Below, one piece after another: positions 21,080 to 54,084 of a DNA stretch of 64,000 nt. Every line of letters starts with the position of its first letter. The stretch's first letter is position 1. The position numbers were made by a program, and so were the translations under genes. The stretch comes from Parabacteroides sp. Its GTDB lineage: Bacteria; Bacteroidota; Bacteroidia; Bacteroidales; Tannerellaceae. Under the pieces are notes generated by a model. It was given only the letters and a program-made list of their open reading frames with translations. It was not told where the DNA came from and did no database searches. The stretch covers positions 124,001 to 188,000 of the forward strand of contig JAFUOJ010000021.1 of NCBI GenBank assembly GCA_017481945.1, written 5' to 3'.

Positions 21080-21149
21080 GTTTCAAAAAGTTTCAGCTCA
21101 TGAAACTCAAAGTTTCAACTGTGAAACCAAAAGTTTCATGGGCTGAAAC
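21080..21149. repeat. Periodic palindrome array A (word GTTTCA/TGAAAC)
   Basis: Seven copies of a six-base word begin at 21080, 21090, 21101, 21112, 21122, 21133 and 21144. The orientations are GTTTCA, GTTTCA, TGAAAC, GTTTCA, TGAAAC, GTTTCA, TGAAAC. Steps are 10, 11, 11, 10, 11 and 11, close to one helical turn, so all words face the same side of the DNA. As inverted pairs the period is 21-22. The array lies between the SPOR terminator and a decayed gene. Confidence 0.85.
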
Positions 21150-21171
21150 TCTCTAACAGTTCAACAATAAA

Positions 21172-21390
21172 CTAATCCAACAATATCACTTTCGCTTTTT
21201 GATTATCCATTCCCGGCATTGTTATTCCAACAGGTGCTCCTATATAAGTAGGGTCACAAATAATATATTTTCGGTTATTAAGCGCGACATAGTCACCTGT
21301 TACTTGCTCTGTAAAACAAACAGCTGTAGCCAAATGTCCCGGATAATACACTAATAGGACTTTTAGTCCCAACAAATATAATTGAAACAA
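21172..21390 (-). pseudogene. Truncated transglutaminase-like protein remnant
   Basis: A frame of 72 codons that begins mid-domain. YYPGHLATAVCF followed by GDYVAL, KYIICDPTYIGAPVG and TMPGMDN matches the C-terminal half of a transglutaminase-like exported protein. The His in GHLATAV and the Asp in CDPTY are the expected catalytic pair, while the Cys-containing N-terminal half is missing. It sits directly downstream of the 339-residue lipoprotein gene, which ends 19 bases away. I read this as a deletion remnant, not a functional small gene. The family assignment is from memory of related Bacteroides proteins. Confidence 0.6.
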
Positions 21391-21409
21391 ATTTACAAAA
21401 AATCAAAAA

Positions 21410-22429
21410 TCAATTGATCTCTATCGTTTCTCCTACTTCAACTTCTTTATCTTCCAATACAACATTCACTTTACTAGAAAGTTCATTTCCTGTATCAACC
21501 TCGCTTTCATCCAATTTAAAAGAAACCGTTGTCATTTTACAACGAGGGAATGACAGACTTTTGTTATAAACAGTTTCTTCCACTTTTCCATCTGAATGAA
21601 TATGAACTATTTTTAAATCAAATGAATGTGAAAAAGTATATCCGATATAGGAAATTTTTTCAAAACGCCATATAGTCGATAAAGAGGAAGTCTCATAATC
21701 TCCATAAGAAAATATTTCTTCTAAAAGGATCTGTGTTTCTGTACTCGGTTGAACAACAAACGAAGTTGCAACATTTGAATTAAAAACATTTAAAGAGACT
21801 TTCAATGTTCCTTCCTTAAAAGGCTGTACTATTAATTTAGCACCAAATACCATACGTAACATCTCAATAGTAACATTTTCCTTTCCCGCTGGTTCAAAAT
21901 CTTGCACCTCACCATAATAACGATCAATAGTAGGATGACTATAATCAATACCATATTTATTATTAAGATTAGCATCCCCACTTTCTAAAAAAGACAAGTA
22001 TTTACTATCTGAATAAATAAATGTATTATTTAAATAACCTCTAAAAGGCAATCCATAGTGCATATAAACATCGTTTTCTCCTTGACTATGATAAATATCG
22101 TCTTTTCCCTTAATCACACAAGTTGATACAAACTTATACATATATCCATCTTTTAATGTAATCTTTAAATCACTGATATCATCAAACAGTCCATAAGCAT
22201 AATGAGTATAACTGTCATTTGTTGTTTTTCGAGCATATACTTGAATTCCATACAAGTCATCTCCACTTGCTTTACTTAAAGGAACTTGTGTCACATCAAG
22301 TATTTCTCCTGCCACTCCAATAGAAACTACATACTCTTTGTTGTTTTCTATTATTTCAATTTCATCTGTAATAGAGTTACAACTTACTAAACACAGGAAC
22401 ATTAATAATAAAACTGTAATCCGTTTCAT
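21410..22429 (-). CDS. Lipoprotein of unknown function
   Basis: A 339-residue predicted lipoprotein: MKRITVLLLMFLCLVSC with the lipid-bearing Cys at 17. The mature part is rich in beta strands, Tyr and Asp. LYGIQVYAR near residue 60, repeated polar Y-x-F strands and a C-terminal SFPRCKMTTVSFKL segment recall fimbrillin-like or surface lipoproteins of Bacteroidales. I cannot assign a family with confidence. It is followed on the same strand by a decayed transglutaminase-like gene, so the pair may once have been an operon. Confidence 0.65.
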   Translation of the reverse strand: MKRITVLLLMFLCLVSCNSITDEIEIIENNKEYVVSIGVAGEILDVTQVPLSKASGDDLYGIQVYARKTTNDSYTHYAYGLFDDISDLKITLKDGYMYKFVSTCVIKGKDDIYHSQGENDVYMHYGLPFRGYLNNTFIYSDSKYLSFLESGDANLNNKYGIDYSHPTIDRYYGEVQDFEPAGKENVTIEMLRMVFGAKLIVQPFKEGTLKVSLNVFNSNVATSFVVQPSTETQILLEEIFSYGDYETSSLSTIWRFEKISYIGYTFSHSFDLKIVHIHSDGKVEETVYNKSLSFPRCKMTTVSFKLDESEVDTGNELSSKVNVVLEDKEVEVGETIEIN

Positions 22430-22477
22430 ACAATTATAAATTTAGTGAGCCTATAAGTCCCCAAAGTCAGCTGTGAA

Positions 22478-22730
22478 TAAAAAAAGAAAAGCGTGAGACT
22501 TGTTCTGTTCATCGAAAACAGGCATCGCCAAACGCCTCACAGAAATGAACGAAGAAACAATATTCTCACGCTGTATGTTTATGTATAGGTACAGCAATTG
22601 CATACCAAGTACATATACAACACAGATGAGCGTTGCATTGTCCTCATCCTTCTGTTTTGAAATTGGCGATTTCGTTTTCAGGATAAAGCAAAAAACGCTT
22701 TCTAAAAAGTCTAGCTATTTCTCCTGCTAG
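22478..22730 (-). ncRNA. Candidate structured small RNA, about 250 nt
   Basis: A promoter-like TACTTTTG (22737-22744, minus strand) is followed by a non-coding stretch full of hairpins. These are TCTAGC/GCTAGA (22712-22733), AAAGC/GCTTT (22684-22703), GATGAG/CTCATC (22625-22650) and TGTATA-GTAC/GTAC-TATACA (22582-22619). A long rod follows: AGCGTGAG (22565-22572) pairs with CTCACGCT (22490-22497), and inside it GTTCAT/ATGAAC and AGGC/GCCT. The rod ends in TTTTCTTTTTTT, a terminator. No convincing frame exists on either strand. It is not tmRNA, RNase P or SRP RNA by their conserved cores. I cannot name it; a 6S-like RNA or another Bacteroidales RNA is possible. Confidence 0.55.
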
Positions 22731-22736
22731 ATTTCG

Positions 22737-22744
22737 CAAAAGTA
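22737..22744 (-). promoter_or_regulatory. -7 element of the 22.5-kb small RNA
   Basis: The minus strand reads TACTTTTG about 8 bases before the inferred 5' end. Confidence 0.5.
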
Positions 22745-22974
22745 CGCTTTCTTTTTAACAATGCAACGCTATCTGAGAATATTATTTCTTCAAAAATCCT
22801 GTTTTTCTATTTATTTTGAATAAACGAATATAAGAACTATAACCGTAGGAACAAATCTATAGATAAATGTTTTTTCTTTTTATAGGGAACTCATACTTCG
22901 TTTTGGTTTCTGTTTAAAGTTTTTTCTATCAAATTTCAACTTTTCCTTAAAAAAACACTTGCATTTGAAAAATA

Positions 22975-23277
22975 ATGTGTAATATTGCCACCGCAAAAAA
23001 TAAAAACACAAACAGCATTACAAATGACATTTACAGGTTTCACATATCATACCTGGACATTTACAATGACCCCCTGGGGGGTGTAGTTTATTCAATCATA
23101 ACAAGGGCAGCGACCACGTCCTGCATTGTTGCAATTTTATTATTGCATTCTATTTTTCAATCAATAAAACATAATTTAAGTAGTAAACAACTGACATATA
23201 CAAGTTGAGCAGATAAGTTGATTCTATTCAAACAGCGAAATATACTTGTTAATTGTCAACTAAATAAATCCATATCA
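22975..23277 (+). promoter_or_regulatory. Long thrA leader with repeats, hairpins and a possible attenuator
   Basis: The roughly 300 bases before thrA contain a direct repeat GACATTTACA at 23026 and 23056, exactly 30 bases apart. They also contain an inverted repeat ACAGGT/ACCTGG (23033/23051) and a GC dyad at 23069-23082 (ACCCC..GGGGT). A hairpin TGCAAT/ATTGCA (23130-23147) is followed by TTCTATTTTT. An open frame from 22975 to 23208 runs through Thr, Ile and Asn codons and then reads IITRAATTS just before the T-rich hairpin. This is consistent with ribosome-mediated attenuation by threonine or isoleucine, but the frame is long (77 codons) for a leader peptide and the start is uncertain. Confidence 0.45.
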
Positions 23278-25716
23278 ATGAAAGTCTTAAAGTTTGGGGG
23301 AACATCTGTTGGTTCTGTAGAAGGTATTTTAAGCGTAAAAAAGATTGTAGAGGCTATTGAAGAGCCTGTAGTAGTTGTTGTATCTGCCTTGGGAGGTATT
23401 ACAGATAAATTATTGAAAACAGCTTCTATGGCTGCCAATGGAGAGGTTGGGTATGAAAAAGAATATTCTGAGATTGTTACTCGTCATTTAGATATTATAC
23501 AAGGGGTTATTCCTGATAAAGTTCAACGAAATGAGGTTGAAAAACAGGTAATGGAACTGTTAGATGAACTTGAGAATATTTATCGAGGAGTTTATTTGAT
23601 CAATGACTTATCCATTAAAACTTCAGATACAATTGTCAGCTATGGAGAACGTATCTCTTCTTTAATCATATCAAATGTAATAGCTGAAGCTAAATTATTT
23701 GACGCACGTAAATTCATCAAAACAGTTCAACAATTCAATAAACATCTTGTTGACTTTGAAAAAACAAATAAATTAATAGAAGAGACGTTCAATCCACTCC
23801 CTAAAGTATCTTTGGTTCCAGGATTTATTTCTTCCAATGAAGAGGGACTTGTCACAAACTTAGGACGTGGTGGTTCTGACTATACAGCTTCAATTTTAGC
23901 AACAGCATTGAATGCGCGCAGGTTGGAAATCTGGACAGATGTTGATGGATTTATGACAGCAGATCCGCGTGTCATTAGTTCGGCTTATGTCATTGATAGA
24001 CTAACATTCACAGAAGCAATGGAGTTATGTAACTTCGGAGCTAAAGTGATTTATCCACCAACAATTTATCCGGTTTATCACAAGAACATTCCTATTCGTA
24101 TATTAAATACTTTTAATCCAACGGCACGTGGAACTTATATATCTAAAGATAAAGTCAAATACGAAGGTAAAGCTTTGATTAAAGGAATCTCATCTATTAA
24201 CGATACCTGCTTGATTACTGTACATGGATTAGGTATGGTTGGAGTTATTGGGGTAAACCACCGTATCTTTAAGACATTGGCAAAAAATGGTATCAGCGTG
24301 TTTATGGTATCCCAAGCTAGTTCTGAAAACAATACAACTTTTGCTGTTCGTAATGCAGATGCAGATTTGGCAGTTAAGGTTTTAGACGAAGAATTTGCAT
24401 TAGAAAGAGCACAAGGGGATATGAACGATACTGTAGCTGAAAAAGATTTAGCAACTGTTGCTATCGTTGGTGAAAATATGAAACGTACACCCGGTATTGC
24501 AGGTAAACTATTCGGGTCATTAGGTCGAGCTGGTATCAGCGTTATCGCTTGTGCACAAGGTGCTTCAGAGACAAATATTTCGTTTGTCATTAAACTGAAA
24601 TATTTAAAGAAAGCCTTAAATACACTTCATGATTCTTTCTTTCTTTCCGAATATAAAGTGATGAATCTATTCATTGCAGGTGTAGGAACCGTTGGCGGAA
24701 ACCTTTTGGAACAAATCCGTATCCAACAGCCCAAATTAATGCAACAAAATGGATTAAAAATAAATGTAGTTGGAGTTGCCAACAGTAAGCACGCTCTTTT
24801 CTGTCGAGAAGGTTTGAATTTAGAGACCTGTATTGAAGAATTAAAAAAGAATGGAGAACCCAGTTCACCTGAACATCTAAGAGACGAAATTCTTAAGATG
24901 AACATCTTTAACTCGGTATTCGTAGACTGTACAGCTAATCAGTCAATAGCAGAACTTTACGAACCATTATTGAATGGCAACGTTTCAGTAGTCGCAGCAA
25001 ATAAGATTGCAGCTTCTTCTTCTTACGACAACTATATCAAATTAAAAGAAGTAGCTCGTCATCGGGGTATTAAATTCTTATTTGAAACCAATGTCGGTGC
25101 AGGATTACCTATTATTAATACGATGAACAATCTGATTAATAGTGGCGACCATATTTCAAAGTTAGAAGCAGTTCTTTCCGGTACGTTAAACTATATATTC
25201 AATACGTTAAGTGCAGATGTTCCTTTCAGTAGAGCGATTCAAATGGCAAAAGAAGAAGGGTATTCAGAGCCAGATCCACGTATTGATTTAAGTGGAAAAG
25301 ATGTTATTCGCAAATTAGTTATTTTAGCTCGTGAAGCTGGATATATCGTTGAGCAAGATGATGTAAAACGAAATCTGTTTGTTCCAAATAAATACTTCGA
25401 GGGTTCTTTAGATGACTTCTGGCAGAACATTCACGAATTAGATGAAGAATTTGAACAGAAACGTCAGCAATTAGCCGCTGAAAACAAACGTCTTCGCTTT
25501 GTTGCCAAGATGGAAAACGGTATTTGTGAAGTGGGTTTACAAGAGGTAGACGCACATCATCCGTTCTATGAACTGGAAGGTAGTAACAACATCATCATGA
25601 TTACGACAGAACGTTACCATGAATATCCTATGATCATAAAAGGATACGGAGCAGGAGCAGATGTAACAGCAGCAGGTGTTTTTGCTGATATTATCTCAAT
25701 TGCGAACATTAGATAA
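23278..25716 (+). CDS. thrA: Bifunctional aspartokinase / homoserine dehydrogenase
   Basis: Carries out the first and third steps of the aspartate pathway to threonine. The aspartokinase domain (about 1-290) starts with KVLKFGGTSVGS, and FITSNEEG-type substrate segments follow (FISSNEEGLVTNLGRGGSDYT). Paired ACT domains (about 315-460) suit allosteric control by threonine. The homoserine dehydrogenase domain (about 465-812) has the NAD(P) loop GVGTVGGNLL, catalytic-region KIAASSSYD and GTLNYIF. An earlier in-frame start at 23218 adds 20 residues unlike the family; the ATG at 23278 begins the conserved strand. It leads an operon with the apgM-like gene (5 bases later) and thrC. Confidence 0.97.
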   Translation: MKVLKFGGTSVGSVEGILSVKKIVEAIEEPVVVVVSALGGITDKLLKTASMAANGEVGYEKEYSEIVTRHLDIIQGVIPDKVQRNEVEKQVMELLDELENIYRGVYLINDLSIKTSDTIVSYGERISSLIISNVIAEAKLFDARKFIKTVQQFNKHLVDFEKTNKLIEETFNPLPKVSLVPGFISSNEEGLVTNLGRGGSDYTASILATALNARRLEIWTDVDGFMTADPRVISSAYVIDRLTFTEAMELCNFGAKVIYPPTIYPVYHKNIPIRILNTFNPTARGTYISKDKVKYEGKALIKGISSINDTCLITVHGLGMVGVIGVNHRIFKTLAKNGISVFMVSQASSENNTTFAVRNADADLAVKVLDEEFALERAQGDMNDTVAEKDLATVAIVGENMKRTPGIAGKLFGSLGRAGISVIACAQGASETNISFVIKLKYLKKALNTLHDSFFLSEYKVMNLFIAGVGTVGGNLLEQIRIQQPKLMQQNGLKINVVGVANSKHALFCREGLNLETCIEELKKNGEPSSPEHLRDEILKMNIFNSVFVDCTANQSIAELYEPLLNGNVSVVAANKIAASSSYDNYIKLKEVARHRGIKFLFETNVGAGLPIINTMNNLINSGDHISKLEAVLSGTLNYIFNTLSADVPFSRAIQMAKEEGYSEPDPRIDLSGKDVIRKLVILAREAGYIVEQDDVKRNLFVPNKYFEGSLDDFWQNIHELDEEFEQKRQQLAAENKRLRFVAKMENGICEVGLQEVDAHHPFYELEGSNNIIMITTERYHEYPMIIKGYGAGADVTAAGVFADIISIANIR

Positions 25717-25721
25717 GGAGT

Positions 25722-26924
25722 ATGAAAACAATCATCATCTTAGGAGATGGAATGGCCGATGAACCGATTGAGGCTTTAGGCGGTAAAACGCCTTTACAAT
25801 ATGCTCATACTCCCTATATGGATAAACTCGCCACATTAGGTGTAACCGGACGTTTGAAAACTGTCGCTGACGGTTTTCATCCGGGAAGCGAGGTAGCCAA
25901 CATGGCTATTTTAGGTTATGATTTACCCACTGTCTATGAAGGAAGAGGTGTATTGGAAGCTGCCAGTATAGGTTACAACCTACAGCCGGGAGAAATGGCT
26001 ATGCGTTGTAATCTCATTTGTGTAGAAGGAGACATATTAAAAAATCACTCTGCCGGTCATATTACAACAGAAGAGGCGGATGAACTTATCCGTTTCTTAA
26101 ATGAGAAATTAGGTTCTGAACGCATACATTTCTATACAGGTGTCTCTTATCGTCATCTGTTAGTCATTAAAGGAGCTGATAAACGATTAGATTGTACACC
26201 TCCTCATGATGTACCTCTTCAACCGTTCCATCCGTTATTGATTAAACCGGAAGTAGCAGAGGCACAAGAGACTGCTGATTTATTAAATGAATTGATTCTT
26301 AAATCTCAAGAGATACTGGAAAGTCATCCTATCAATCAAAAGCGTATTGCAGCCGGTAAAGACCCAGCAAATAGTATTTGGCCTTGGTCACCCGGATACC
26401 GTCCTGCTATGCATACCCTACAAGAGATGTATGGTATCAAACAAGGAGCAGTTATTTCTGCAGTTGACTTAATCCGGGGTATCGGTGTTTATGCCGGATT
26501 AAAAGTCATTGATGTAAAAGGAGCTACCGGTTTATACGATACCAATTACGAAGGGAAAGCACAGGCTGCTCTCGAAGCACTCAAAACAAACGATTTTGTA
26601 TATCTTCATGTAGAGGCCAGCGATGAAGCCGGTCATGAGGGAGATGTCGATCTAAAAATTCAAACCATTGAGAATTTAGATAAACGTGCTATCGGTATTC
26701 TATTCGAAGAGTTACAAAAATGGGAAGAACCAGTCACAATAGCTGTGCTACCGGATCACCCTACTCCTTGTGCTGTTCGTACACATACCAATACGCCTAT
26801 CCCCTTTGTCATTTACAAACCGGGGCAACAACCCGACCCAGTGACTCGTTTTGATGAATACGCAGTACAGGAAGGAAAATACAGTATCTTAGAGAAAGAT
26901 GAATTTATAAAAGAATTATTATGA
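25722..26924 (+). CDS. ApgM-family protein, probable homoserine kinase (ThrB2-like)
   Basis: By sequence this is an alkaline-phosphatase-superfamily, cofactor-independent phosphoglycerate mutase of the archaeal ApgM type. Metal motifs are ILGDGMADEP at the N-terminus, HVEASDEAGHEGD near residue 297 and PDHPTPCAVRTHT near residue 345. It lies between thrA and thrC, five bases after the first and overlapping the second by four. No thrB of the GHMP family is present. Comparative genomics has proposed ApgM-like ThrB2 proteins as alternative homoserine kinases in Bacteroidetes; the context here supports that role. Mutase activity cannot be excluded. Length 400 is normal. Confidence 0.85.
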   Translation: MKTIIILGDGMADEPIEALGGKTPLQYAHTPYMDKLATLGVTGRLKTVADGFHPGSEVANMAILGYDLPTVYEGRGVLEAASIGYNLQPGEMAMRCNLICVEGDILKNHSAGHITTEEADELIRFLNEKLGSERIHFYTGVSYRHLLVIKGADKRLDCTPPHDVPLQPFHPLLIKPEVAEAQETADLLNELILKSQEILESHPINQKRIAAGKDPANSIWPWSPGYRPAMHTLQEMYGIKQGAVISAVDLIRGIGVYAGLKVIDVKGATGLYDTNYEGKAQAALEALKTNDFVYLHVEASDEAGHEGDVDLKIQTIENLDKRAIGILFEELQKWEEPVTIAVLPDHPTPCAVRTHTNTPIPFVIYKPGQQPDPVTRFDEYAVQEGKYSILEKDEFIKELL

Positions 26925-28234
26925 AATATTATAGCACAAACAAACAGGCTCCTTTTGCCTCTCTGGAAGAAGCTGTTGTCAAAGGCCTTGCCAGTGATAA
27001 GGGGTTATTTATGCCGGAGTCTATTCAACCAATCGACAAAGACGTTATTACTGATTTAAAAAATAAAACATTCCACGAGATTGCCTGCACCGTTGCACAA
27101 GCATTCTTTGGGCAGGATATTGAGCCGGATACATTGAATGAAATAGTAAAAGATACTCTATCATTTGAAACTCCAGTCGTAAACGTTCGTGACAATATTT
27201 ACAGTCTCGAACTTTTTCACGGACCTACATTGGCTTTTAAAGACGTTGGGGCACGCTTTATGGCTCGCCTATTAGGTTATTTTATCCAGAAAGAGGGATT
27301 AAAGCAGGTGAATGTTTTGGTAGCGACTTCCGGAGATACGGGTAGTGCAGTAGCAAATGGTTTCTTAGGAGTACCCGGTATTCATGTATATGTACTTTAT
27401 CCCAAAGGTAAAGTCAGCCCTATCCAAGAATGCCAGTTCACAACATTAGGTCAGAACATTACCGCATTGGAGATTGACGGAACGTTTGATGACTGCCAAG
27501 CATTAGTTAAATCGGCTTTCATGGACGAAGCATTAAATCAGCACATGAAGCTAACTTCAGCGAACTCTATCAATGTAGCTCGTTTCCTTCCGCAGTCATT
27601 TTATTATTTCAATGCGTACGCACAATTAGATCGAATCGGTGAAGCTGATGAATTAGTTGTTTCTGTTCCAAGTGGCAACTTCGGGAATATCACTGCCGGT
27701 ATATTTGCTTACTGGATGGGATTACCCATTAAACGATTTATTGCTGCCAATAATCGTAACGACGTTTTCTTAGAGTATCTGAATACAGGAGTCTATACTC
27801 CACGTCCTTCTGTCTCTACTTTAGCAAACGCAATGGATGTAGGTAATCCTAGTAACTTTGCTCGTATTCTGGATCTATTTGGTAAATATGAAGATCCTCA
27901 TAAGGAAATCTGTAAACGAATCTCCGGTTATCGTTTTACAGATGAAGAGATTGCTGCGACCATGAAACAAACATATACGGAAACCGGTTACATTTTAGAT
28001 CCGCACGGAGCTTGTGGTTATCAAGCATTGGTTAATAATCATCTTACACCTAATGAGACCGGAGTCTTTTTAGAAACGGCTCATCCTGCTAAGTTCAAAG
28101 GGGTAGTTGATCAGATTTTATCAACCGACATTAAAATCCCAGCAAAGCTAAAAGCCTTCATGCAAGGTAAAAAACAAAGCATTGAACTTAGCAAAGACTT
28201 TGAAGGGTTTAAACAGTTCTTACTGCAACAGTAA
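26921..28234 (+). CDS. thrC: Threonine synthase
   Basis: A PLP enzyme making threonine from phosphohomoserine. The PLP lysine is in GPTLAFKDVGARF (near residue 110), with the phosphate-binding loop SGDTGSAVANGF, PSGNFGNITAG and the C-terminal EPHGACG-like LDPHGACGYQA. Length 437 fits the longer bacterial class. Its start ATG overlaps the stop of the apgM-like gene (ATGA), consistent with coupled translation. A terminator follows at 28253. Confidence 0.97.
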   Translation: MKYYSTNKQAPFASLEEAVVKGLASDKGLFMPESIQPIDKDVITDLKNKTFHEIACTVAQAFFGQDIEPDTLNEIVKDTLSFETPVVNVRDNIYSLELFHGPTLAFKDVGARFMARLLGYFIQKEGLKQVNVLVATSGDTGSAVANGFLGVPGIHVYVLYPKGKVSPIQECQFTTLGQNITALEIDGTFDDCQALVKSAFMDEALNQHMKLTSANSINVARFLPQSFYYFNAYAQLDRIGEADELVVSVPSGNFGNITAGIFAYWMGLPIKRFIAANNRNDVFLEYLNTGVYTPRPSVSTLANAMDVGNPSNFARILDLFGKYEDPHKEICKRISGYRFTDEEIAATMKQTYTETGYILDPHGACGYQALVNNHLTPNETGVFLETAHPAKFKGVVDQILSTDIKIPAKLKAFMQGKKQSIELSKDFEGFKQFLLQQ

Positions 28235-28252
28235 TTATTTCTTTATTATAAA

Positions 28253-28292
28253 ACAACGGGAACTAAATCTGATTTAGCTCCCGTTTCTTTTT
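28253..28292 (+). terminator. Terminator of the threonine operon
   Basis: AACGGGAaCTAAATC and GATTTAGcTCCCGTT with TTCTTTTTT after it; one internal mismatch. Confidence 0.88.
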
Positions 28293-28298
28293 TACTGC

Positions 28299-28394
28299 TT
28301 ATTCTTCAGTAGTTTCTTCTTCTGTCGTTATACTATCACCGATGATTATTTCTTTACCGATTTGCTCAACAACATTCCTAAAAGAAATCTTTTC
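28299..28394 (-). pseudogene. Possible remnant of a small gene, C-terminal end
   Basis: An open frame of 31 codons on the minus strand without a start codon, following an in-frame TAG. It contains NVVEQIGKEIIIGDSI and an acidic Thr/Glu tail, and ends in TAA. It looks like the end of a former protein. A -7-like TTCCTTTG lies just upstream. No family recognised. Confidence 0.3.
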
Positions 28395-28438
28395 CTATTC
28401 GGAAGCAAAGGAAAAACTACTTTCTTACAGGCAAAAAG

Positions 28439-28545
28439 TTACTTACTAAGTAGAGCTTCCTCTACTTAATAAGCAGACTTTCTTCTACTTATCGAGTAGA
28501 CAAACCTCTACTTACCGAGTAGATTTGACTCTACTTAGTAAGTAG
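28439..28545. repeat. Periodic palindrome array B (word CTACTT/AAGTAG)
   Basis: Five inverted-repeat units follow each other with an exact 23-base period. Left arms start at 28439 (degenerate TTACTT), 28462, 28485, 28508 and 28531. Right arms AAGTAG, AAGCAG, GAGTAG, GAGTAG and AAGTAG start at 28448, 28471, 28494, 28517 and 28540. Arms are separated by three bases; the spacers between units are not conserved. Confidence 0.9.
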
Positions 28546-28739
28546 ATTTTAAGCCATTTACTTCCGTCCTGAAATTTTATAGCAATCCTTTCTAAACCTT
28601 TTACCGCTTTAACTTGTTTCATAGTCAGAACAGAAGCAGAGTGACAGGCGATTTCATCGCTGAACTCTAAGCAATCCTTTCGTTCGGCTACAATAGCAAC
28701 AATATCTGATATTTGGACAGACAGAAAGGGACTACCTGC
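28512..28739 (-). pseudogene. Gene remnant overlapping the palindrome array
   Basis: An open frame of 75 codons on the minus strand with no ATG at its beginning (it follows a TGA). It includes SDIVAIVAERKDCLEF, KQVKAVKGLERIAIKF and GSKWLKIYLLSR. Composition is protein-like. The last codons run into repeat array B, where the frame stops. I cannot name the family. It reads as the C-terminal part of a lost gene whose end merges with the array. Confidence 0.4.
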
Positions 28740-28762
28740 TCATCAGATAGCCCCTTTCTTTA
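28723..28762 (+). terminator. Hairpin, probable terminator
   Basis: AGAAAGGG pairs with CCCTTTCT, extended by CTA/TAG, followed by TTATTTCC. The T tract is weak, so direction is uncertain. Confidence 0.5.
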
Positions 28763-34328: not shown

Positions 34329-34748
34329 TTAAAAAGTAATATTCAATTCTTTTTCAGCCCTACTTTTCAATAAAGAAAGAGCTTTATAATTATACTTGTT
34401 CTCTACTATCAATGCAAAGATCTTTGTAGCTTTTTCTTCTAATATTGGATTTGTCGAAAAACGATCAGGATGACATTTCTTTTTTAACATGTCATAAAGT
34501 TCTTGAGAATAAAAAGCATTATTTATTACTCCATTAAAATCAACAGGTTCACTTTTCATTTTTTGTTTTAACTGAAAATATTTCGAACTCCTCCGTCGTA
34601 CTATTCCATAAGAAACTAAAGCGATAGCAATAGCCCCTCCTAACCAATATACCCACTGATAACTCTCTGTTTGAGAGACTTTAGCTGTCGTATTAACTGT
34701 ATTTGTTAATGTGTCAACGACTTGCGTCAAACTATCTATTGAATTCAT
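34329..34748 (-). CDS. Membrane-anchored J-domain-like protein (operon gene 2)
   Basis: 139 residues. An N-terminal Ser/Thr-rich segment (1-30) precedes one membrane helix (about 33-50). The cytoplasmic C-terminal part has a short helix, then LYDMLKKKCHPDRF, which carries the HPD tripeptide that defines DnaJ domains, followed by a helix EEKATKIFALIVENKYNYKAL resembling J-domain helix III. It would recruit an Hsp70 to the membrane. The J domain is short and lacks the Gly/Phe region, so function is only inferred. The start overlaps the end of the preceding gene by 17 bases. Confidence 0.65.
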   Translation of the reverse strand: MNSIDSLTQVVDTLTNTVNTTAKVSQTESYQWVYWLGGAIAIALVSYGIVRRRSSKYFQLKQKMKSEPVDFNGVINNAFYSQELYDMLKKKCHPDRFSTNPILEEKATKIFALIVENKYNYKALSLLKSRAEKELNITF

Positions 34749-35145
34749 TTAGTGCACCTCCCATATTTGCATAATCAATTAATTTCCAACGACATCCATA
34801 AATTCCCGTATCATCATGAATTTCTAACGTATCCCAACCCAAAGCAATTAATTGTCGAACTAAAGCAGTATCATGTAAAACAACCATACCTATGACAATC
34901 ATTTCATCTTTACTTAAGGAACGTCCAGAGAGTGCTTGAATACGAAATCCTGTATTCATCCAAGCAGAAAATTGATGTCTATATTCAGAATTACCTTTTG
35001 AGATACTAGCTTTTAGCATTGTGGGAGCCAAACCTAATACAAAAGCCTTACGAGCAGCACTATTAAAACTTCGAACCAAACTATTTCGTTCAGAACGATC
35101 ATTAAACCAATCTAAAACATTATTCCAGATATTCTCAAACAACAT
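34732..35145 (-). CDS. Protein of unknown function (operon gene 1)
   Basis: 137 residues, no signal or membrane segment. Predominantly helical: NIWNNVLDWFNDRSERNSLVRSF at the start, KEAFVLG-like KAFVLGLAPTMLKASISKG in the middle, and a C-terminal DTLEIHDDTGIYGCRWKL. I do not recognise the family. It is the first gene of a tight four-gene operon with a membrane J-like protein and two tiny membrane proteins. A hairpin GAACCgtccGGTTC (35178-35191) lies in the 5' leader, after a -7-like TATCTTTC. Confidence 0.6.
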   Translation of the reverse strand: MLFENIWNNVLDWFNDRSERNSLVRSFNSAARKAFVLGLAPTMLKASISKGNSEYRHQFSAWMNTGFRIQALSGRSLSKDEMIVIGMVVLHDTALVRQLIALGWDTLEIHDDTGIYGCRWKLIDYANMGGALNEFNR

Positions 35146-35509: not shown

Positions 35510-36030
35510 TAAATTATTTATTACTAAATGAAAAAAACAAAAACAAATCTTTTAAAAAACACCACTTTACCAGTTCATCAAAACGACACCTATTTCCCAC
35601 AAACAAAATCTTTTCGCTTTAAACAATACATTTTCTATTTCATTTCGTCAAACTTTAACTTTTGGAGAATTGAATATTTGAAAAGAGAACAAAGACTTTG
35701 CATGTAGGATGGAAATATACAAGGGGTATATTTTTTACTTGGGGAGGTATTTGAAAAAAGTTTGGATATTTTTCGGAAAAAGTCTAAACTTTTTGTGTAA
35801 AAAGTCCAGACTTTTAAAATCAAAAGTTTAGACTTTTTTCATCCTAAAAAACGGGTAAAAGTGACAAAAACCGATACTTTCAGCGCAAAAAGTACTGTTT
35901 TCTCCCTCTTTTTCCCATAAACTACGATTTTGGAAACCTTTTATCTCCGATTTTTAGTTTCTATTTTACTCCATTTTTGAATCAAATTTGAATTGACAAA
36001 ATGTCACTTTTCATTCGAGCGACATCACAC
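35510..36030. other. Long AT-rich intergenic region
   Basis: Apart from repeat array C, this region shows no gene, RNA signal or repeat I can defend. It separates the ncRNA promoter from the terminator of the PurF-like gene. Confidence 0.6.
35756..35837. repeat. Periodic palindrome array C (word AAAAGT/ACTTTT)
   Basis: AAAAGT begins at 35756, 35778, 35800 and 35822, an exact 22-base period. ACTTTT begins at 35788, 35810 and 35832, also exactly 22 apart; in the first unit the right arm is degenerate. The full units read AAAAGTYYRRACTTTT with small variation in the centre. Confidence 0.88.
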
Positions 36031-44776: not shown

Positions 44777-44777
44777 C

Positions 44778-47390: not shown

Positions 47391-47425
47391 GTGTTTTTCC
47401 TCCTTTTTATTTTTTAATAGTACAA

Positions 47426-47740
47426 TTATTTTACTTCCATTAATTCAATTGAAATACCTTCTTCTTCGATGAAAGCGATTGTCAAATGTTCGTCGCAAAC
47501 GGCCGGACCAAAAATCACTTTCTTTCCCTTCAATTCTTCTTCCAAAGAAGGTACAACATAAGCTATGTGACTTTGAGTTTGTACCAATTCCGGCATACAG
47601 CTACCAGCCTCAAATTTCAAAAACTCAATCTTGTTCGCACTTTGATTGGGATCGGTCAACCATACGCTCAAACCTTCATTGTAAACTGATCCTGCTACCT
47701 TCTCGGATACGACTATCCCAATGTGATGTAATGTTCTCAT
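47426..47740 (-). CDS. Vicinal oxygen chelate (glyoxalase-like) protein
   Basis: A single VOC module of 104 residues. The metal-site residues are at expected places: LHHIGIVV (His), KIEFLKF (Glu), SHIAYVV (His) and SIELMEV (Glu). Proteins of this fold isomerise, dioxygenate or open methylglyoxal-type adducts. As first gene of the dhaK-dhaL-lsrF operon it may isomerise the sugar intermediate, in the place LsrG holds in the lsr pathway. A -7 element TAACTTTG lies at 47780-47787. Confidence 0.85.
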   Translation of the reverse strand: MRTLHHIGIVVSEKVAGSVYNEGLSVWLTDPNQSANKIEFLKFEAGSCMPELVQTQSHIAYVVPSLEEELKGKKVIFGPAVCDEHLTIAFIEEEGISIELMEVK

Positions 47741-47779
47741 GACTAATAAATTTAATTTGTTATGTTACATTATGAGAGT

Positions 47780-47787
47780 CAAAGTTA
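47780..47787 (-). promoter_or_regulatory. -7 element of the VOC-dhaKL-lsrF operon
   Basis: The minus strand reads TAACTTTG, about 40 bases before the VOC ATG. Confidence 0.6.
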
Positions 47788-47849
47788 TAGAATTTTTCTT
47801 TGCAATAAATTAAGTTTTAGCAAAAATCTGAAGAAAAACTTATTTTACC

Positions 47850-47894
47850 CCAAAAATAGGAAGGAGAATTTCTTTCTAAGACTCTCCTCCTTCA
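47850..47894 (-). terminator. Terminator after the HlyD-type gene
   Basis: GAAGGAGgAGA and TCTCCTTCC (minus strand) with ATTTTTGGGG after it; the arm has one bulge. Confidence 0.65.
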
Positions 47895-47908
47895 TTAATA
47901 TAAGCCAC

Positions 47909-49159
47909 TCATTCTAAAACTAATATCTCATTTTCTTTATAACTTTCATAGCTTGAAACTATTACTTTCTCACCAGCCTCTAAACCTTCAAGGACTTCAT
48001 AATATTGTGGATTCTGACGACCGATTTTAATTTTACGACGATAAGCTTTCTTTCCTTCCTTATCCAATACAAAAATCCAACTACCTCCTGTACTTTGAAA
48101 AAATGTACCACGGGGAATAATAATACTTTCCGTTGGTTGTCCCAGTTCCAGATTAATATAATAGGTCTGCCCACTACGAATATTATCCGGACGTTCTCCT
48201 GTAAAAACAAAATCTGTTCTAAATTTTCCATCTCGAACTTCTGGATATACCTTACGAACTGTTAAAGTAAAATCAGATCCTTGTCGTTCAAAGTTAGCTG
48301 TTAATCCTGGTTTAACTCGATCAATATAATGTTCATCAATAAGAGCCTCTATTTTATAATCTGAAAAATCATTGATCTGCCCTATCTTTTGCCCTGCTGT
48401 CACATTCTGTCCTAAGACGACATCTAACAACCCTAATTCTCCATCAATTTGTGATCGTACATTCAAATGTTCTTTTCGTTCATGAACCAAAGCTATATTC
48501 TTACGCATATTTGCCAAACTTGTTTCCATTTCCTCCATCTGGATAGTCCTTGAAATTGAGTCCTGACGTAAACGCTCCACAACTAAATCATATTTTTTAC
48601 TAGCTAACTCATAATCTTCTTTTGCCTTCAAGTATTCTTCTTTTGCAATCAATTCTTCATCATACAGTCTTTTCTGTTGTTGATAAGCACGACGATAGCG
48701 AGTTATATCCATATCTAATTGTGCCTTCTCTAACTGATTATTTAATTTATCCTGTTCCATCGTAACTTGAGTATTACGAAGGAAATTTTGTTTTTCAGCC
48801 AATTGTGCTTCTGCATCTAAAATTTGCAAATCAAGATTTGAATTAGACAAACGAATAATAATATCCCCTTTTTTAACCTGTGCCCCTTCTTCTACCACTT
48901 TTTCCTGAACAATACCCCCTTCTTCTGGACTCAACTGAACAATTGTTATCGGTTGTACTTGTCCATCCATCCGGACAAAATCATTAAACTGTTCATAAGT
49001 AACATTTCCTATATTTAGATTCTGACTATTCACTTTTAATGTTGAGACATGATCACCCCAAATAATCCAGCATAACAAAGCCAAGAAAAAGACACTTCCT
49101 ATTATATAAGGTATATGTTTTTTCTGAATTCCTTTTCTTTTTTCTAACTGTATATCCAT
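47909..49159 (-). CDS. HlyD/MacA-type periplasmic adaptor
   Basis: 416 residues: a short basic N-terminus, one membrane helix (about 17-35), a lipoyl half-motif (LSPEEGGIVQEKVVEEGAQVKKGD), a long coiled-coil hairpin (about 110-235), the second lipoyl half (DGELGLLDVVLGQNVTAGQKIG) and C-terminal beta domains. It links an inner-membrane exporter to TolC. It is co-transcribed with the TolC gene, 46 bases upstream, but no exporter gene is adjacent and a terminator follows. Confidence 0.9.
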   Translation of the reverse strand: MDIQLEKRKGIQKKHIPYIIGSVFFLALLCWIIWGDHVSTLKVNSQNLNIGNVTYEQFNDFVRMDGQVQPITIVQLSPEEGGIVQEKVVEEGAQVKKGDIIIRLSNSNLDLQILDAEAQLAEKQNFLRNTQVTMEQDKLNNQLEKAQLDMDITRYRRAYQQQKRLYDEELIAKEEYLKAKEDYELASKKYDLVVERLRQDSISRTIQMEEMETSLANMRKNIALVHERKEHLNVRSQIDGELGLLDVVLGQNVTAGQKIGQINDFSDYKIEALIDEHYIDRVKPGLTANFERQGSDFTLTVRKVYPEVRDGKFRTDFVFTGERPDNIRSGQTYYINLELGQPTESIIIPRGTFFQSTGGSWIFVLDKEGKKAYRRKIKIGRQNPQYYEVLEGLEAGEKVIVSSYESYKENEILVLE

Positions 49160-49205
49160 AATTATTATCTTTTTATTATTTCCTAATCTATATTTATTCT
49201 CTCTT

Positions 49206-50540
49206 TTACTCTGTAATCAACGGTCTTCCTTTATAATAATCCACTTGTCTACATTTTATCATATATAATAAACGCTTTTGTAATAAATCTGCTCTTGAAT
49301 TCAATAAAGCAGTTGCATTAGTTTGTACATCCAAAGGGCTCATTAATCCTTCTTCATATTTACGAAGTGTTACTTGGTATGACAAGGCATCCGCCTTTAC
49401 TTTCTTTTCCATTTGAGTGGTCTCTTTCGCATATCCCTCACGATCTAAAACGGCTTGTTCAACATCTGCTTGCAATTGACGAAGTACTTCTGTCTGTTTT
49501 TCATAAGCAATTCGTATATTATTTCGAGCACGACGTAAATTGGTAATTCGTGATAATCCATCAAACAAGGGCAAACTAAAATTTAAATAAATATATTCAC
49601 CTCGATTATTTTTAAATTGATCTTTAAAAGCAACTGGTGTATTGGTCGATTTTAAATTTTCAAAATAACTCGTTGAGACACCAGCCTGTAACGTAATAGA
49701 AGGGAATAACTTACCTTTCATTATTAAATAATTCATTCGACTAGTTTTCAATTGAAAAGCAGCTTGTAAAGCCGTCGGATTATTAGCAATAGCACAATCC
49801 TGAATTTCACTGATTACTTCTTGTTCAAAAAAGCTATTTATAACAGGAATCACTGTATCTACATTCAAAATAGAATCTAAAGGATAATTCATTTTATTTT
49901 TTAAACTAATCAAGGCTGTATTATAAAGATTCTGTTGATGAGTCAAATTATAATCATCCCCTGCTACCTGTGACTCTATTTGGGCGACATCTGCTTTTCC
50001 TTTTAACCCCAACTCTTCTTGCCGACGAGTTTTATACAACAAACGTTCACTTTCCAAAAGCTTTTCAGCACACATTTTTACTAAACCTTGATAATAGAGA
50101 ACAGAAACAAAAGCATTCATTACATCAATAGCCAAATCGTCTTTTTGCTTTCGTAAGTCATTTTTCCCCATATAACGATTAACATTTGCCAATCTCAATT
50201 GATTAATCAGCTGCCCCCCCTTAAACAAAGGTAAGCTCAGATAAGCTCCATAACCATTATTAAAGGTAGAAGTATTAACATAAGTATTTGTTTCTGGGTC
50301 TACAGAACGCCCAAATCGATATTGTGCATCTATTTCCGTTCCTATAGATGGAAGAAAAGAAGCTATTGCGGACTGTTGTTCTGTCTTATATGTATTATTT
50401 GTATAGATCTGTTGCTTTACTTTTGGACTATTCTCTATCGCATATCGCATACATGCATCCATATTCCATCTATCATTTTGTGCTATAGTCGAAACAACTA
50501 TATTTAAAGAAATAATCGTTATTGTTGCTATCTTTTTCAT
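49206..50540 (-). CDS. TolC-family outer-membrane protein
   Basis: 444 residues. Signal peptide (cleaved after about residue 20), then the OEP repeats: two copies of long helical hairpins, with QYRFGRSVDPETNTY and ARRARNNIRIAYEK-like segments and the second-half LFDGLSRITNLRRARNN. It forms the trimeric outer-membrane tunnel of a tripartite exporter. The first gene of a two-gene unit with the adaptor. Confidence 0.93.
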   Translation of the reverse strand: MKKIATITIISLNIVVSTIAQNDRWNMDACMRYAIENSPKVKQQIYTNNTYKTEQQSAIASFLPSIGTEIDAQYRFGRSVDPETNTYVNTSTFNNGYGAYLSLPLFKGGQLINQLRLANVNRYMGKNDLRKQKDDLAIDVMNAFVSVLYYQGLVKMCAEKLLESERLLYKTRRQEELGLKGKADVAQIESQVAGDDYNLTHQQNLYNTALISLKNKMNYPLDSILNVDTVIPVINSFFEQEVISEIQDCAIANNPTALQAAFQLKTSRMNYLIMKGKLFPSITLQAGVSTSYFENLKSTNTPVAFKDQFKNNRGEYIYLNFSLPLFDGLSRITNLRRARNNIRIAYEKQTEVLRQLQADVEQAVLDREGYAKETTQMEKKVKADALSYQVTLRKYEEGLMSPLDVQTNATALLNSRADLLQKRLLYMIKCRQVDYYKGRPLITE

Positions 50541-50635
50541 TACTTTATATTTTTACCTAATCACACACAAATATTATGCCATATTATATAAGTAACTATC
50601 AAACAATAGATTAGCAAAATCATCTACTCTTTCAA

Positions 50636-50675
50636 GTGTCAAAAAATTAGACAGTAGTGTCAAAAAAATGGACAC
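50636..50675. repeat. Periodic palindrome array D (word GTGTC/GACAC)
   Basis: GTGTC starts at 50636 and 50657; GACA starts at 50650 and 50671. Both steps are 21 bases, giving two inverted-repeat units. Confidence 0.7.
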
Positions 50676-50823
50676 TCTACCATGAATCTCCATTAGGACA
50701 AAACATGTTCTCTTCTTAAAAAATTAATCCACATTTAAGCTTTCGGTTCCAAATAAATTCAAAATGGCTGTAAAACATATAAAATTATCTAATAAATTCT
50801 ATCCAGAAAATTTTTAATTAGCA

Positions 50824-50831
50824 TATATTTG
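50824..50831 (+). promoter_or_regulatory. -7 element of ppdK
   Basis: TATATTTG, 57 bases before the ATG at 50889. Confidence 0.55.
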
Positions 50832-50888
50832 CAGCACTGCAATTTTAAGATTGCATAAAACTGAAATCTATTATTTTTAATATTGTAT

Positions 50889-53609
50889 ATGGAAAGAAAA
50901 AGAGTTTACACCTTCGGTAACGGACAAGCTGAAGGTAAGGCAGATATGAGAAATCTGCTAGGTGGTAAAGGGGCAAACCTTGCCGAAATGAATCTTATCG
51001 GTGTTCCTGTTCCTCCGGGATTCACTATCACTACTGAAGTTTGTACTGAGTATTTTGAATTAGGAAAAGATAAAGTCGTTGAGATTTTGAAAGACGATGT
51101 GATGAAGGCAGTTGCTAACATCGAAGCGTTGATGAATTCAAAATTTGGCGATGTTGAGAATCCTTTGTTGGTTTCTGTTCGTTCCGGAGCTCGTGCTTCT
51201 ATGCCGGGTATGATGGATACCATCCTGAACTTGGGTTTGAATGACGAAGTAGTAGAAGGTATGATCCGTAAGACCGGCCGTCCTCGCTTCGCTTGGGACT
51301 CTTACCGTCGTTTTGTACAGATGTACGGTGACGTGGTGTTAGGGATGAAACCGGTAAACAAAGAAGATATCGATCCATTCGAAGCTATCATCGAAGAGGT
51401 GAAAGAAGCCAAAGGCGTGAAGTTGGATAACGAATTGGAAGTGGAAGACCTACAGGAACTTGTTAAACGTTTCAAAGCTGCTGTTAAGGCTCAGACCGGT
51501 CAGGATTTCCCGACAGACGCTTACGAACAGCTTTGGGGGGCTATCTGCGCTGTATTCGATTCTTGGATGAACGAACGTGCAATCCTTTACCGTAAGATGG
51601 AAGGTATTCCGGCTGAATGGGGTACTGCTGTAAACGTACAGGCTATGGTATTCGGTAACATGGGGGATACTTCTGCTACTGGTGTTTGCTTCTCTCGTGA
51701 CGCAGGTAACGGTGAAGATCTTTTCAACGGTGAATATTTGATCAATGCTCAGGGTGAAGACGTGGTGGCTGGTATCCGTACTCCGCAACAGATCACAAAG
51801 ATCGGTTCTCAACGCTGGGCTGAACGTGCTGGTATCTCTGAAGAAGAACGTGCTGCCAAGTATCCGTCTATGGAAGAGGCTATGCCGGAAATCTATAAAG
51901 AATTGGACGAACTTCAGACGAAGTTGGAAAACCATTACCGCGATATGCAGGATATGGAATTCACCGTTCAGGAAGGTAAACTTTGGTTCTTGCAGACTCG
52001 TAACGGTAAACGTACCGGTTCTGCTATGGTTAAGATTGCTATGGACTTGTTACGTCAGGGCATGATTGACGAAAAGACTGCTTTGGAACGTTGTGAACCG
52101 CAGAAATTGGATGAACTGTTGCACCCTGTCTTCGATAAGAATGCATTGAAACAGGCTAAAGTTTTGACACGTGGTCTTCCGGCTTCTCCGGGTGCAGCTA
52201 CCGGTCAGATCGTTTTCTTCGCTGAAGACGCTGCTAAATGGAGAGCTGACGGCAAGAAGGTGGTAATGGTTCGTATCGAAACTTCTCCGGAAGACTTGGC
52301 TGGTATGGCTGTGGCAGAAGGTATCTTGACCGCTCGTGGTGGTATGACTTCTCACGCTGCTGTTGTTGCTCGTGGTATGGGTAAATGCTGCGTTTCCGGT
52401 GCCGGTGCTATCAATGTAGACTACAAAGCACGTACTGTTGAAATCGATGGTATTGTATTAAAAGAGGGTGATTTCATCTCTATCAACGGTACTACAGGGG
52501 AAGTTTATCAGGGTAAAGTGGAAACAAAAGCTGCTGAAGTATCTGGTGACTTTGCTGACTTGATGGCGCTTTGCGATAAATATACAAAGTTATTGGTTCG
52601 TACTAACGCAGATACTCCGCATGACGCAGAAGTTGCTCGTGCATTCGGTGCACAAGGTATCGGTCTTTGCCGTACAGAGCACATGTTCTTCGAAGCTGAA
52701 AAGATCGTGGCTATGCGCGAAATGATTTTGGCTCCGGACGTAGAAGGACGTAAGAAAGCGTTGGCTAAATTGTTACCGTATCAGAAAGCTGACTTCAAGG
52801 GTATCTTCAAAGCAATGAACGGCTTCCCTGTAAACGTTCGTCTGTTAGACCCTCCTTTGCATGAGTTTGTTCCTCACGATGCAAAAGGTCAGGAAGAGAT
52901 GGCTCAGGCTATGGGCGTAACTGTTGAATACATCAAACAGCGCGTTGAAAGCCTTTGCGAACACAATCCGATGTTAGGTCACCGTGGTTGTCGTTTAGGT
53001 AACACTTATCCGGAAATCACTGAAATGCAGACTCGTGCTATCTTAGGCGCTGCTGTTGAATTGAAGAAAGAAGGTTTGGATCCTCATCCTGAAATCATGG
53101 TTCCATTAACCGGTATCTTGTATGAATTCGAAGCACAGGAAAAGGTAATCCGTGAGACTGCTGCTGCCTTGTTCGCTGAAGAAGGTGTTGAAATCCCATT
53201 CAAGGTAGGTACAATGATTGAAATCCCACGTGCTGCTTTGACTGCTAACCGTATCGCAAGCCGCGCTGAATACTTCTCATTCGGTACAAACGACTTGACT
53301 CAGATGACATTCGGTTACTCTCGTGACGATATCGCTTCATTCTTGCCGGTATATTTGGAAAAGAAGATCTTGAAGGTCGATCCGTTCCAGGTATTAGACC
53401 AGAATGGTGTTGGTCAGTTGGTGAACATGGCTGTAGAAAAGGGACGTTCTGTTCGTCCGGACTTGAAGTGCGGTATCTGTGGTGAACACGGTGGTGAACC
53501 TTCTTCTGTTAAGTTCTGTCACAGAGCAGGTTTGAACTACGTTTCTTGTTCTCCGTTCCGCGTGCCTATCGCACGTTTGGCTGCTGCACAAGCTGCTGTG
53601 GAAGAATAA
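50889..53609 (+). CDS. ppdK: Pyruvate, phosphate dikinase
   Basis: 906 residues. Interconverts pyruvate, ATP and phosphate with PEP, AMP and pyrophosphate, a glycolytic or gluconeogenic step in anaerobes. The ATP-grasp domain has LLGGKGANLAEM and SVRSGARASMPGMMD. The swivelling phosphohistidine domain has GGMTSHAAVVARGMGK. The PEP-binding TIM barrel ends with CGICGEHGGEPSS. A TTG at 50883 is in frame, but the ATG at 50889 starts the conserved N-terminus. Codon use is noticeably more biased (many GGT, GCT, CGT), as expected for a highly expressed gene. A strong terminator follows. Confidence 0.98.
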   Translation: MERKRVYTFGNGQAEGKADMRNLLGGKGANLAEMNLIGVPVPPGFTITTEVCTEYFELGKDKVVEILKDDVMKAVANIEALMNSKFGDVENPLLVSVRSGARASMPGMMDTILNLGLNDEVVEGMIRKTGRPRFAWDSYRRFVQMYGDVVLGMKPVNKEDIDPFEAIIEEVKEAKGVKLDNELEVEDLQELVKRFKAAVKAQTGQDFPTDAYEQLWGAICAVFDSWMNERAILYRKMEGIPAEWGTAVNVQAMVFGNMGDTSATGVCFSRDAGNGEDLFNGEYLINAQGEDVVAGIRTPQQITKIGSQRWAERAGISEEERAAKYPSMEEAMPEIYKELDELQTKLENHYRDMQDMEFTVQEGKLWFLQTRNGKRTGSAMVKIAMDLLRQGMIDEKTALERCEPQKLDELLHPVFDKNALKQAKVLTRGLPASPGAATGQIVFFAEDAAKWRADGKKVVMVRIETSPEDLAGMAVAEGILTARGGMTSHAAVVARGMGKCCVSGAGAINVDYKARTVEIDGIVLKEGDFISINGTTGEVYQGKVETKAAEVSGDFADLMALCDKYTKLLVRTNADTPHDAEVARAFGAQGIGLCRTEHMFFEAEKIVAMREMILAPDVEGRKKALAKLLPYQKADFKGIFKAMNGFPVNVRLLDPPLHEFVPHDAKGQEEMAQAMGVTVEYIKQRVESLCEHNPMLGHRGCRLGNTYPEITEMQTRAILGAAVELKKEGLDPHPEIMVPLTGILYEFEAQEKVIRETAAALFAEEGVEIPFKVGTMIEIPRAALTANRIASRAEYFSFGTNDLTQMTFGYSRDDIASFLPVYLEKKILKVDPFQVLDQNGVGQLVNMAVEKGRSVRPDLKCGICGEHGGEPSSVKFCHRAGLNYVSCSPFRVPIARLAAAQAAVEE

Positions 53610-53637
53610 TGGATATATATCCTGTTAATAAGTAAAT

Positions 53638-53690
53638 ACAAAAATCCCCGGTAACAGATAATATTTCTGTCACCGGGGATTTTTATTTCT
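53638..53690 (+). terminator. Terminator of ppdK
   Basis: AAAAATCCCCGGTaACAGA and TCTGTcACCGGGGATTTTT, long stem with one mismatch and T runs on both sides. Confidence 0.9.
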
Positions 53691-53773
53691 CTGCCGGGAT
53701 TACTAAAGAAAAACCGGTATGAAAAAGAAAGGATTTATATACATGTCCGAACCAAACATATCTTCCATATTTT

Positions 53774-53972
53774 TTATGTAAGATAGATAACTTTCAACTG
53801 ATCACATCCATTGAATACTTTATATCCAATCTATGTAACAGAATTTGGTATAGTTATATTTGTAATACTTTCTTCACAGCTAAATACATTATCCCCAATA
53901 ATATTAACTCCTTCCTCTATTTTGTCTGACCCAATATTGTTGTATAAAACTAACAAATCATTTTTGTTGAAT
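53774..53972 (-). pseudogene. Remnant of a BspA-like leucine-rich repeat surface protein
   Basis: On the minus strand, a frame reads EEGVNIIGDNVFSCEE, then SITNITIPNSVT, a TAG at 53831-53833, and IGYKVFNGCDQLKVIYLT. These are consecutive LRR_5 repeats of the BspA type (GVxxIGxxAFxxCxxLxxIxIPxSVT). The fragment covers about two and a half repeats, has no start, and is cut by an internal stop. So it is a decayed piece of a larger surface protein. Confidence 0.7.
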
Positions 53973-54021
53973 AAAAACGTTAACTGTTAGTTCTTGTTTA
54001 AATACTTTTTTACATGAAAAC

Positions 54022-54084
54022 AACTCTAAACCTTACTCGAGGAGTAAAGCGGACGTTACTCGAGGAGTAAGATTTTTTAGAGTT
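54022..54084. repeat. Periodic palindrome array E (word TTACTC/GAGTAA) within an outer inverted repeat
   Basis: Two palindromes TTACTCGAGGAGTAA start at 54033 and 54056, 23 bases apart. An outer pair AACTCTAAA (54022-54030) and TTTAGAGTT (54076-54084) encloses them, so the whole could form a nested cruciform. Confidence 0.85.

Follow-up and report, generated by a model that had tools for sequence, protein, structure and literature searches.

What kind of sequence gives rise to several short arrays of inverted repeats that have their spacing in common and yet each carry a word of their own? Five such arrays (A to E) were noted in a preliminary description of the window, the whole 64,000-nucleotide stretch of Parabacteroides DNA analysed here, where each word was held to be conserved within its locus but not between loci, in contrast to REP elements. 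From this, either a process that coins locus-specific words or a structural role, in which geometry matters and the word does not, was proposed. The window lies on contig 13 of a Parabacteroides-like metagenome-assembled genome (G000, the own genome; 2.79 Mb, 83% complete), and the nearest named relatives of its threonine synthase gene thrC are from Parabacteroides. Coordinates are collected in Table 1.

Table 1. Arrays and anchoring genes in the window (lengths and pitch in bp)
Feature	Position	Strand	Description
Array A	21080..21150	.	Lone GTTTCA at 21080, then 3 hairpin units, pitch 21-22
Threonine synthase gene thrC	26921..28234	+	Left of array B; anchor for orthologous gaps
Element around array B	28401..28565	.	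~165 bp; outer limits by eye
Array B lattice	28439..28545	.	Five CTACTTANYRAGTAG-type units, pitch exactly 23
Array C	35754..35837	.	Four AAAAGTYYRRACTTTT-type units, first degenerate, pitch 22
Array D	50635..50676	.	Two units AGTGTC-n9-GACA(C/G)T, pitch 21
Pyruvate phosphate dikinase gene (presumed)	50883..53609	+	Between arrays D and E
Array E	54033..54070	.	Two identical TTACTCGAGGAGTAA units, pitch 23

When the units were located individually, all five arrays were found where they had been described, with a pitch of 21, 22 or 23 bp, and all lay in noncoding gaps, outside open reading frames (ORFs) of at least 80 aa. The units of array A (GTTTCA-n4/5-TGAAAC) start at 21090, 21112 and 21133, with a half-site spacing that varies by 1 bp. 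In array B, 15-mers start at 28439, 28462, 28485, 28508 and 28531; the surrounding element is edged on the left by an outer GGAAGCAAA and a half unit CTACTT, and on the right by a degenerate half unit. Array C has units at 35778, 35800 and 35822 and its degenerate unit near 35756. Array D consists of two 21-mers at 50635 and 50656 with imperfect arms, which were missed with 5-base arms but found with 4-base arms and as a period-21 tandem repeat; array E is a pair of identical 15-mers at 54033 and 54056, and the B and E words have YTACTY..RAGTAR in common. The gene between arrays D and E, which we take to encode pyruvate phosphate dikinase, there being a PPDK_N Pfam match among the flanking proteins, could be aligned in relatives, the alignments ending short of both arrays. 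Pfam searches of the neighbouring ORFs at 21413-22429 and 34735-35145 gave no match, nor did an Rfam search of the window. CRISPR was set aside, as it had been in the preliminary description, on the basis of repeats of only ~15-21 bp, spacers of a few bp and the lack of any Rfam match in the window.

For a wider survey, a sample of 1,078,944 bases (1.08 Mb, 39% of the own genome) was used, of which 130,053 were included for the B or C arrays in them; gene calls were approximated by ORFs. In the window itself, chains of units were detected by 5-bp exact arms, the same word and a pitch of 18-27. The enrichment over shuffled sequence that had been anticipated was seen in the 8,075 noncoding bases of the window, with 4 detector hits against a mean of 0.15 and a maximum of 1 in 20 dinucleotide shuffles, as well as in the genome sample, where shuffles averaged at most 0.3 chains per pitch bin. 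Across this sample, 24 chains fell in 101,825 bp of noncoding DNA and 5 in 977,119 bp of ORF, with 1 mixed, a density ~46 times higher outside ORFs than inside in a sample that includes loci chosen for their arrays.

The claim that each word is confined to its locus did not survive this survey, since all five recur. Whole-genome searches of the own genome were made with the B and C words, and recurrence of A, D and E was taken from the 1.08 Mb sample. The A word occurs at 4 loci (the window, C13:200220, L265:7016 and L266:5677); the B element at 5 places, the window counted, with its closest copies on C10 (95% identical) and C7 (91%) in unrelated flanks; and the C word AAAAGTYYRRACTTTT at 15 exact sites in 6 loci, where neighbouring sites are 22, 44 or 66 bp apart, against 0 sites for the reversed control. 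The D word has one further locus (L272:9309), making 2 in total, and the E word also has 2 loci, with a related array of four units, counted by eye, at C13:27413. Locus-specific words were therefore rejected for the five given, each of which is the mark of a dispersed family in the manner of REP, and a process that coins such words is not needed; yet arms do switch inside some arrays, as described below. Copies of B and of C in the own genome have the same low unit number.

About a dozen words were found in the own genome, some of which alternate in pairs every 41-42 bp. Besides A to E, these include F (GCGAC arms), G (TAGAC), H (ATACC) and the period 41-42 arrays. The H, 41b, 42c, 41d, 42e and CTCAC words have one locus each in the 39% of the genome sampled, and AGAAT, CGTAG, TTTCC and AATGT arrays were likewise seen at one place each in this sample. 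Arrays of two unlike palindromes in alternation, the pair repeating every 41-42 bp, lie at L035:17587-17847, L272:15254-15473, L046:27-167 and L269:9775-9958, and a further word outside the array list, a tandem GATGTC-n-GACAT with a pitch of 23, lies at L037:7473-7560.

The geometry of these families proved to be narrow. Families B, E, F, G and H have a pitch of 23, and A, C and D of 21-22. When hairpin pairs of one word were sorted by spacing in the own genome, the main peak lay at 21-23 bp; harmonics appeared near 44-46 and 66-69, and there was an extra peak at 41. Apart from two-unit chains whose words contain nothing but A and T, the 1.08 Mb sample held 11 two-unit and 10 longer chains in the 18-24.5 bin and 21 and 6, respectively, in the 39-46.5 bin, which includes second harmonics of the 22-23 bp arrays; no chain fell in the 14-17.5, 25-31.5 or 32-38.5 bins. 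In the first 370,700 bases, which were not chosen for arrays, the same pattern was seen (3 chains at 18-24.5, 9 at 39-46.5 and 0 in the other bins). At thrC-region loci of other Tannerellaceae-like genomes, 5 two-unit chains and 1 longer chain were found at 18-24.5, 7 and 4 at 39-46.5, and 2 and 0, 1 and 2, and 3 and 0 in the remaining three bins. The corresponding values for other Bacteroidales were 0 and 4, 6 and 1, and then 1 and 0, 2 and 0, and 4 and 0, with a shuffle mean of at most 0.25 for both sets. No chain in any bin was detected in a small control of 200 kb of E. coli K-12 (20,896 noncoding bases). The proposal that geometry is what the arrays have in common is supported in that different words share the pitch, here and in other Bacteroidales; the limit on pitch is less strict outside the own genome, where the other bins account for a minority of the chains. 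Pitches span ~20.5 to 24 and do not mark one exact helical phase.

Families of this kind were also followed in relatives, where drafts are among the genomes compared and site counts refer to exact patterns only. A search of 118 genomes of the family found B in 11, the own genome counted, and all 11 belong to the own genus. In a relative (G136), the gap orthologous to array C (locus L061) holds TACATCGGATGTA-type units at a similar pitch, and this word, searched as TACATCNGATGTA, has 29 sites in G136 (27 places by our own count) and 0 in five other genomes. The pattern used as the reversed control for C, TTTTCARRYYTGAAAA, turned out to occur in another genome (G009), with 11 sites spread over 4 loci; within a locus these are 42 or 84 bp apart, a single interval measuring 171. 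Strong arrays of other words were found at L083 (nine regular units, pitch 23), L120 and L122 (pitch ~22) and L077 (pitch 23). Word turnover at one place was examined by eye for 10 array rows with both flanks in the other genome, of which 2 were non-collinear and were dropped. Six of the 8 remaining gaps have no array in the other genome (L272, one of these, has an ambiguous flank), and 2 hold a different word, namely window array C against TACATC and L239:3309 against a looser repeat at ~C13:208550-208850; these 2 are suggestive of turnover, not proof. Elsewhere in G136, one array (C13:25054; L216/L245) passes from GTTTC..GAAAC units to TTTCATCCGATGAAA and then to TTACATCCGATGTAA, and on contig 25 a TACATC array runs straight into a second repeat of CCCTGGGCAGG-like units (L280:2111-2330).

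Comparison of copies gave some indication of how the arrays change, from array lists that were partly hand-picked and unit calls that take in weak units at array edges. By eye, unit number differs in 2 of 3 orthologous pairs: G002 has one clean extra 23-bp unit relative to G019, the right end of which is also shortened, and the four units of G000 correspond to three in G023, the spacing having changed by 1 bp; G019 and G024 have equal numbers. Arms differ between neighbouring units with the core kept at L077, L261 and L263. At L077, successive units read TTGAC-core-GTCAA, TCCAC-core-GTCAA, TCCAC-core-GTGGA (twice) and TGTGC-core-GCACA (twice), so that arms change, in one case by half a unit, around a constant core AACGYT. 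In the own genome, the F and G arrays at C26:7540 and C4:23280 are alike over ~89 bp but for one mismatch, and the point at which they part falls within a unit, with GCGAC arms beyond it in one and TAGAC arms in the other; an H array goes from ATACC to ATAAC around a core of the same type. Over 44 unit groups, 316 of the 501 cells with variable arm pairs hold a Watson-Crick pair, whereas 500 permutations gave a mean of 269.8 and a maximum of 290, a compensation signal that comes mainly from a few arrays (L077, L120 and L244). Within arrays, one-sided arm differences are the commonest (293), followed by two-sided paired (118) and two-sided unpaired (94).

One F element has 12-bp terminal inverted repeats (TTTCCATTCGCG...CACGAATGGAAA); by eye, ends were recognised as TTTCCATTCGCG in this element and as GGAAGCAAA in some B copies, with no long leader or tail. 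By eye, neither a clear target-site duplication at the B, C and F ends nor a close empty site was seen, and no filled and empty pair was found at strain level, the empty gaps being those of diverged species. No mobiliser was found. Genes for Y1/RAYT transposases (PF01797) numbered 0 in the 83%-complete own genome, with 5 of 14 control genomes positive, and RAYT-driven REP elements were rejected on this basis. Among 103 array-flanking proteins there was no recurring partner family, no Pfam family being present in more than 3, and the 5 matches of the F end sequence included no autonomous element. Carriage of B by plasmids or phages was likewise rejected, a match being absent from both plasmid and phage collections; in IMG/VR, B-like units were met on 4 contigs, always singly and never as a lattice. 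The TACATC tandem pattern gave 0 matches. Four G136 contig ends (L246, L248, L253 and L230) carry near-identical starts of PF13102 recombinase genes, each directly after a TACATC array. In the own genome, tyrosine recombinase genes on contig 12 (L312:2018-2700) and contig 11 (L314:1369-1409) have paired CTTATTTCATAAATAAG sites at their 3' ends, and on contig 12 an inverted CTTATTTCATAAATAAG copy follows after ~500 bp, an arrangement suggestive of an invertible segment.

Three other explanations were weighed against this evidence. The arrays might be double-stranded sites for nucleoid or regulatory proteins, one dimer per palindrome at about two helical turns and a different protein for each word. 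Such sites would suit the palindromic units, several of which in the C family and the G136 arrays are palindromic through the centre, and the own-genome pitch confined to 20.5-24 bp; they fit poorly with neighbouring units that swap arms and keep the core (L077, L261 and L263) and with the 1-bp shift in half-site spacing in array A. Nor are the arrays confined to promoters: of 29 listed in the own genome, 28 could be classed by gap, 13 as codirectional, 9 as convergent and 6 as divergent (background gaps of at least 150 bp: 113, 31 and 59, respectively). The confinement to promoter regions that would mark the operators of a transcription-factor regulon was not seen, convergent gaps holding 9 of these 28 and 4 of the 23 classed arrays in G136 (27 listed). 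We regard protein sites of this kind as unlikely.

Tandem hairpins acting in RNA, on termination or RNA stability, would agree with units able to form 5-7 bp hairpins with loops similar within a family, with several arrays that by eye come after terminator-like hairpins, and with a certain over-representation of convergent gaps in the own genome (9 of 28 against 31 of 203). Mismatched stem pairs, however, have no bias to G-U over A-C (11 GT, 16 AC and 24 other), every gap type is used, the window has no Rfam match, and RNA hairpins would not predict a strict pitch, which makes a role in RNA improbable. We would give similarly little credit to a partnership with tyrosine recombinases, in which the arrays are sites or relics of these enzymes and every word family has a recombinase to itself, in the way that REP goes with RAYT. 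The four G136 contig ends where the TACATC array immediately precedes near-identical recombinase gene starts speak for it, as do a TACATC array that lies 7 bp from a fifth G136 recombinase gene, at its 3' end, two TTACATCGGA half units ~1.3 kb from a sixth, and CTTATTTCATAAATAAG pairs at the 3' ends of 2 of the 8 PF13102 genes in the own genome. The four G136 copies are duplicates, though, and worth about one; the own-genome pairs resemble ordinary invertase sites, no recombinase family figures among the 25 that are commonest in the 103 flanking proteins, and most of 20 recombinase loci have no array. The link to tyrosine recombinases is one of few loci and is not general.

On balance, the five arrays are probably single copies from several families of short, noncoding, dispersed BrickBuilt/REP-like elements that hold a palindromic minisatellite. 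In this best explanation the elements are ~40-260 bp long, with hairpin-forming units of ~15-21 bp set head to tail every 20.5-24 bp. It draws on the recurrence of all five words, the close B copies in unrelated flanks and the restriction of B to the own genus; on the two-bin pitch with harmonics and the mostly noncoding chains of the own genome; on the G136 word, with 29 sites against 0 in five genomes, and the TTTTCARRYYTGAAAA sites in G009, mostly at multiples of 42 bp; and on the unit number change in 2 of 3 pairs, the F/G arm switch, the F terminal inverted repeats and the arm pairing in 316 of 501 cells. Weighing against it are the mobiliser that was not found, the lack of a clear target-site duplication or a strain-level filled and empty pair, the several one-locus words, and arm differences that are mostly one-sided, with compensation from few arrays. 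Copies would spread as non-autonomous MITE/REP-like elements through an enzyme acting in trans, and slippage or unequal exchange may add to the number of units. Palindromy and pitch may persist because the dyad or hairpin geometry plus the core, not one fixed arm sequence, would be what is read by the copying enzyme or by a bound protein; the evidence does not need a benefit to the host. A bolder version, which we consider possible but doubtful, is a Bacteroidales element class set by geometry (dyad units about every two helical turns, a conserved core and interchangeable palindromic arms), in which new words would come from in-register recombination through the shared core, half-changed units would be made symmetrical again, and the resulting species dialects would be read by a structure-specific protein.

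On this reading, a repeat class published as one family of Porphyromonas gingivalis would extend to several Bacteroidales genera, with many words at nearly one geometry and with arm switching. In major gut bacteria, such arrays may have consequences for gene spacing, for strain typing and for where assemblies break, and the families offer a natural test of whether a mobile element is recognised by structure or by sequence.

Among known systems, CsrB-type arrays have regularly spaced hairpins with conserved loops, and lambda operator triplets have three palindromes at a 20-24 bp pitch, each at single loci with a known reader; the arrays here share the regular spacing but form dispersed families. 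REP/BIME elements, and REPINs with RAYT (TnpA-REP), are short dispersed intergenic palindromes with species-specific words, found in arrays. The families described here resemble them, as far as accessible accounts go, in being dispersed intergenic palindromes in arrays with one word per family, and differ in the lack of a Y1/RAYT gene, in far fewer copies per family and in the head-to-tail 20.5-24 bp lattice. Among the titles and abstract openings surveyed, a literature largely without subscription papers, none was seen to describe these families, either for Parabacteroides or for Bacteroidales at large; besides PMC4596501, accessible text of PMC12306157, PMC7366714, PMC3733652 and PMC5771137 was compared, and a term search of that of PMC2267715 gave no match.

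The closest likeness is to BrickBuilt of P. gingivalis, described in the accessible text of PMC4596501 as a MITE/minisatellite that occupies 19 loci, is built of 23-nt units that are gained and lost, and has inverted-repeat ends and a 4-bp target-site duplication; 41-, 23- and 22-nt tandem repeats of strain W83 are mentioned in the same text. Common to both are tandem units of 23 nt, dispersal over many loci between genes, expansion and contraction by whole units, the potential to form stem-loops, inverted-repeat ends and confinement to close relatives (PMC4596501). The arrays here indeed have units of ~23 nt in tandem at several dispersed intergenic loci and, by eye, gain or lose whole units at orthologous loci; no leader or tail with 12-bp IS5-type terminal inverted repeats was seen at the ends inspected. 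BrickBuilt, as far as that text goes, is one family with a long leader and tail and 12-bp IS5-type ends GAGACCTTTGCA (PMC4596501), from which the ends here differ, whereas the families here have many words per genome, the same low unit number in B and C copies, and arm switching. Relative to published BrickBuilt, the breadth and the arm switching are new, and so, presumably, are the palindromic units.
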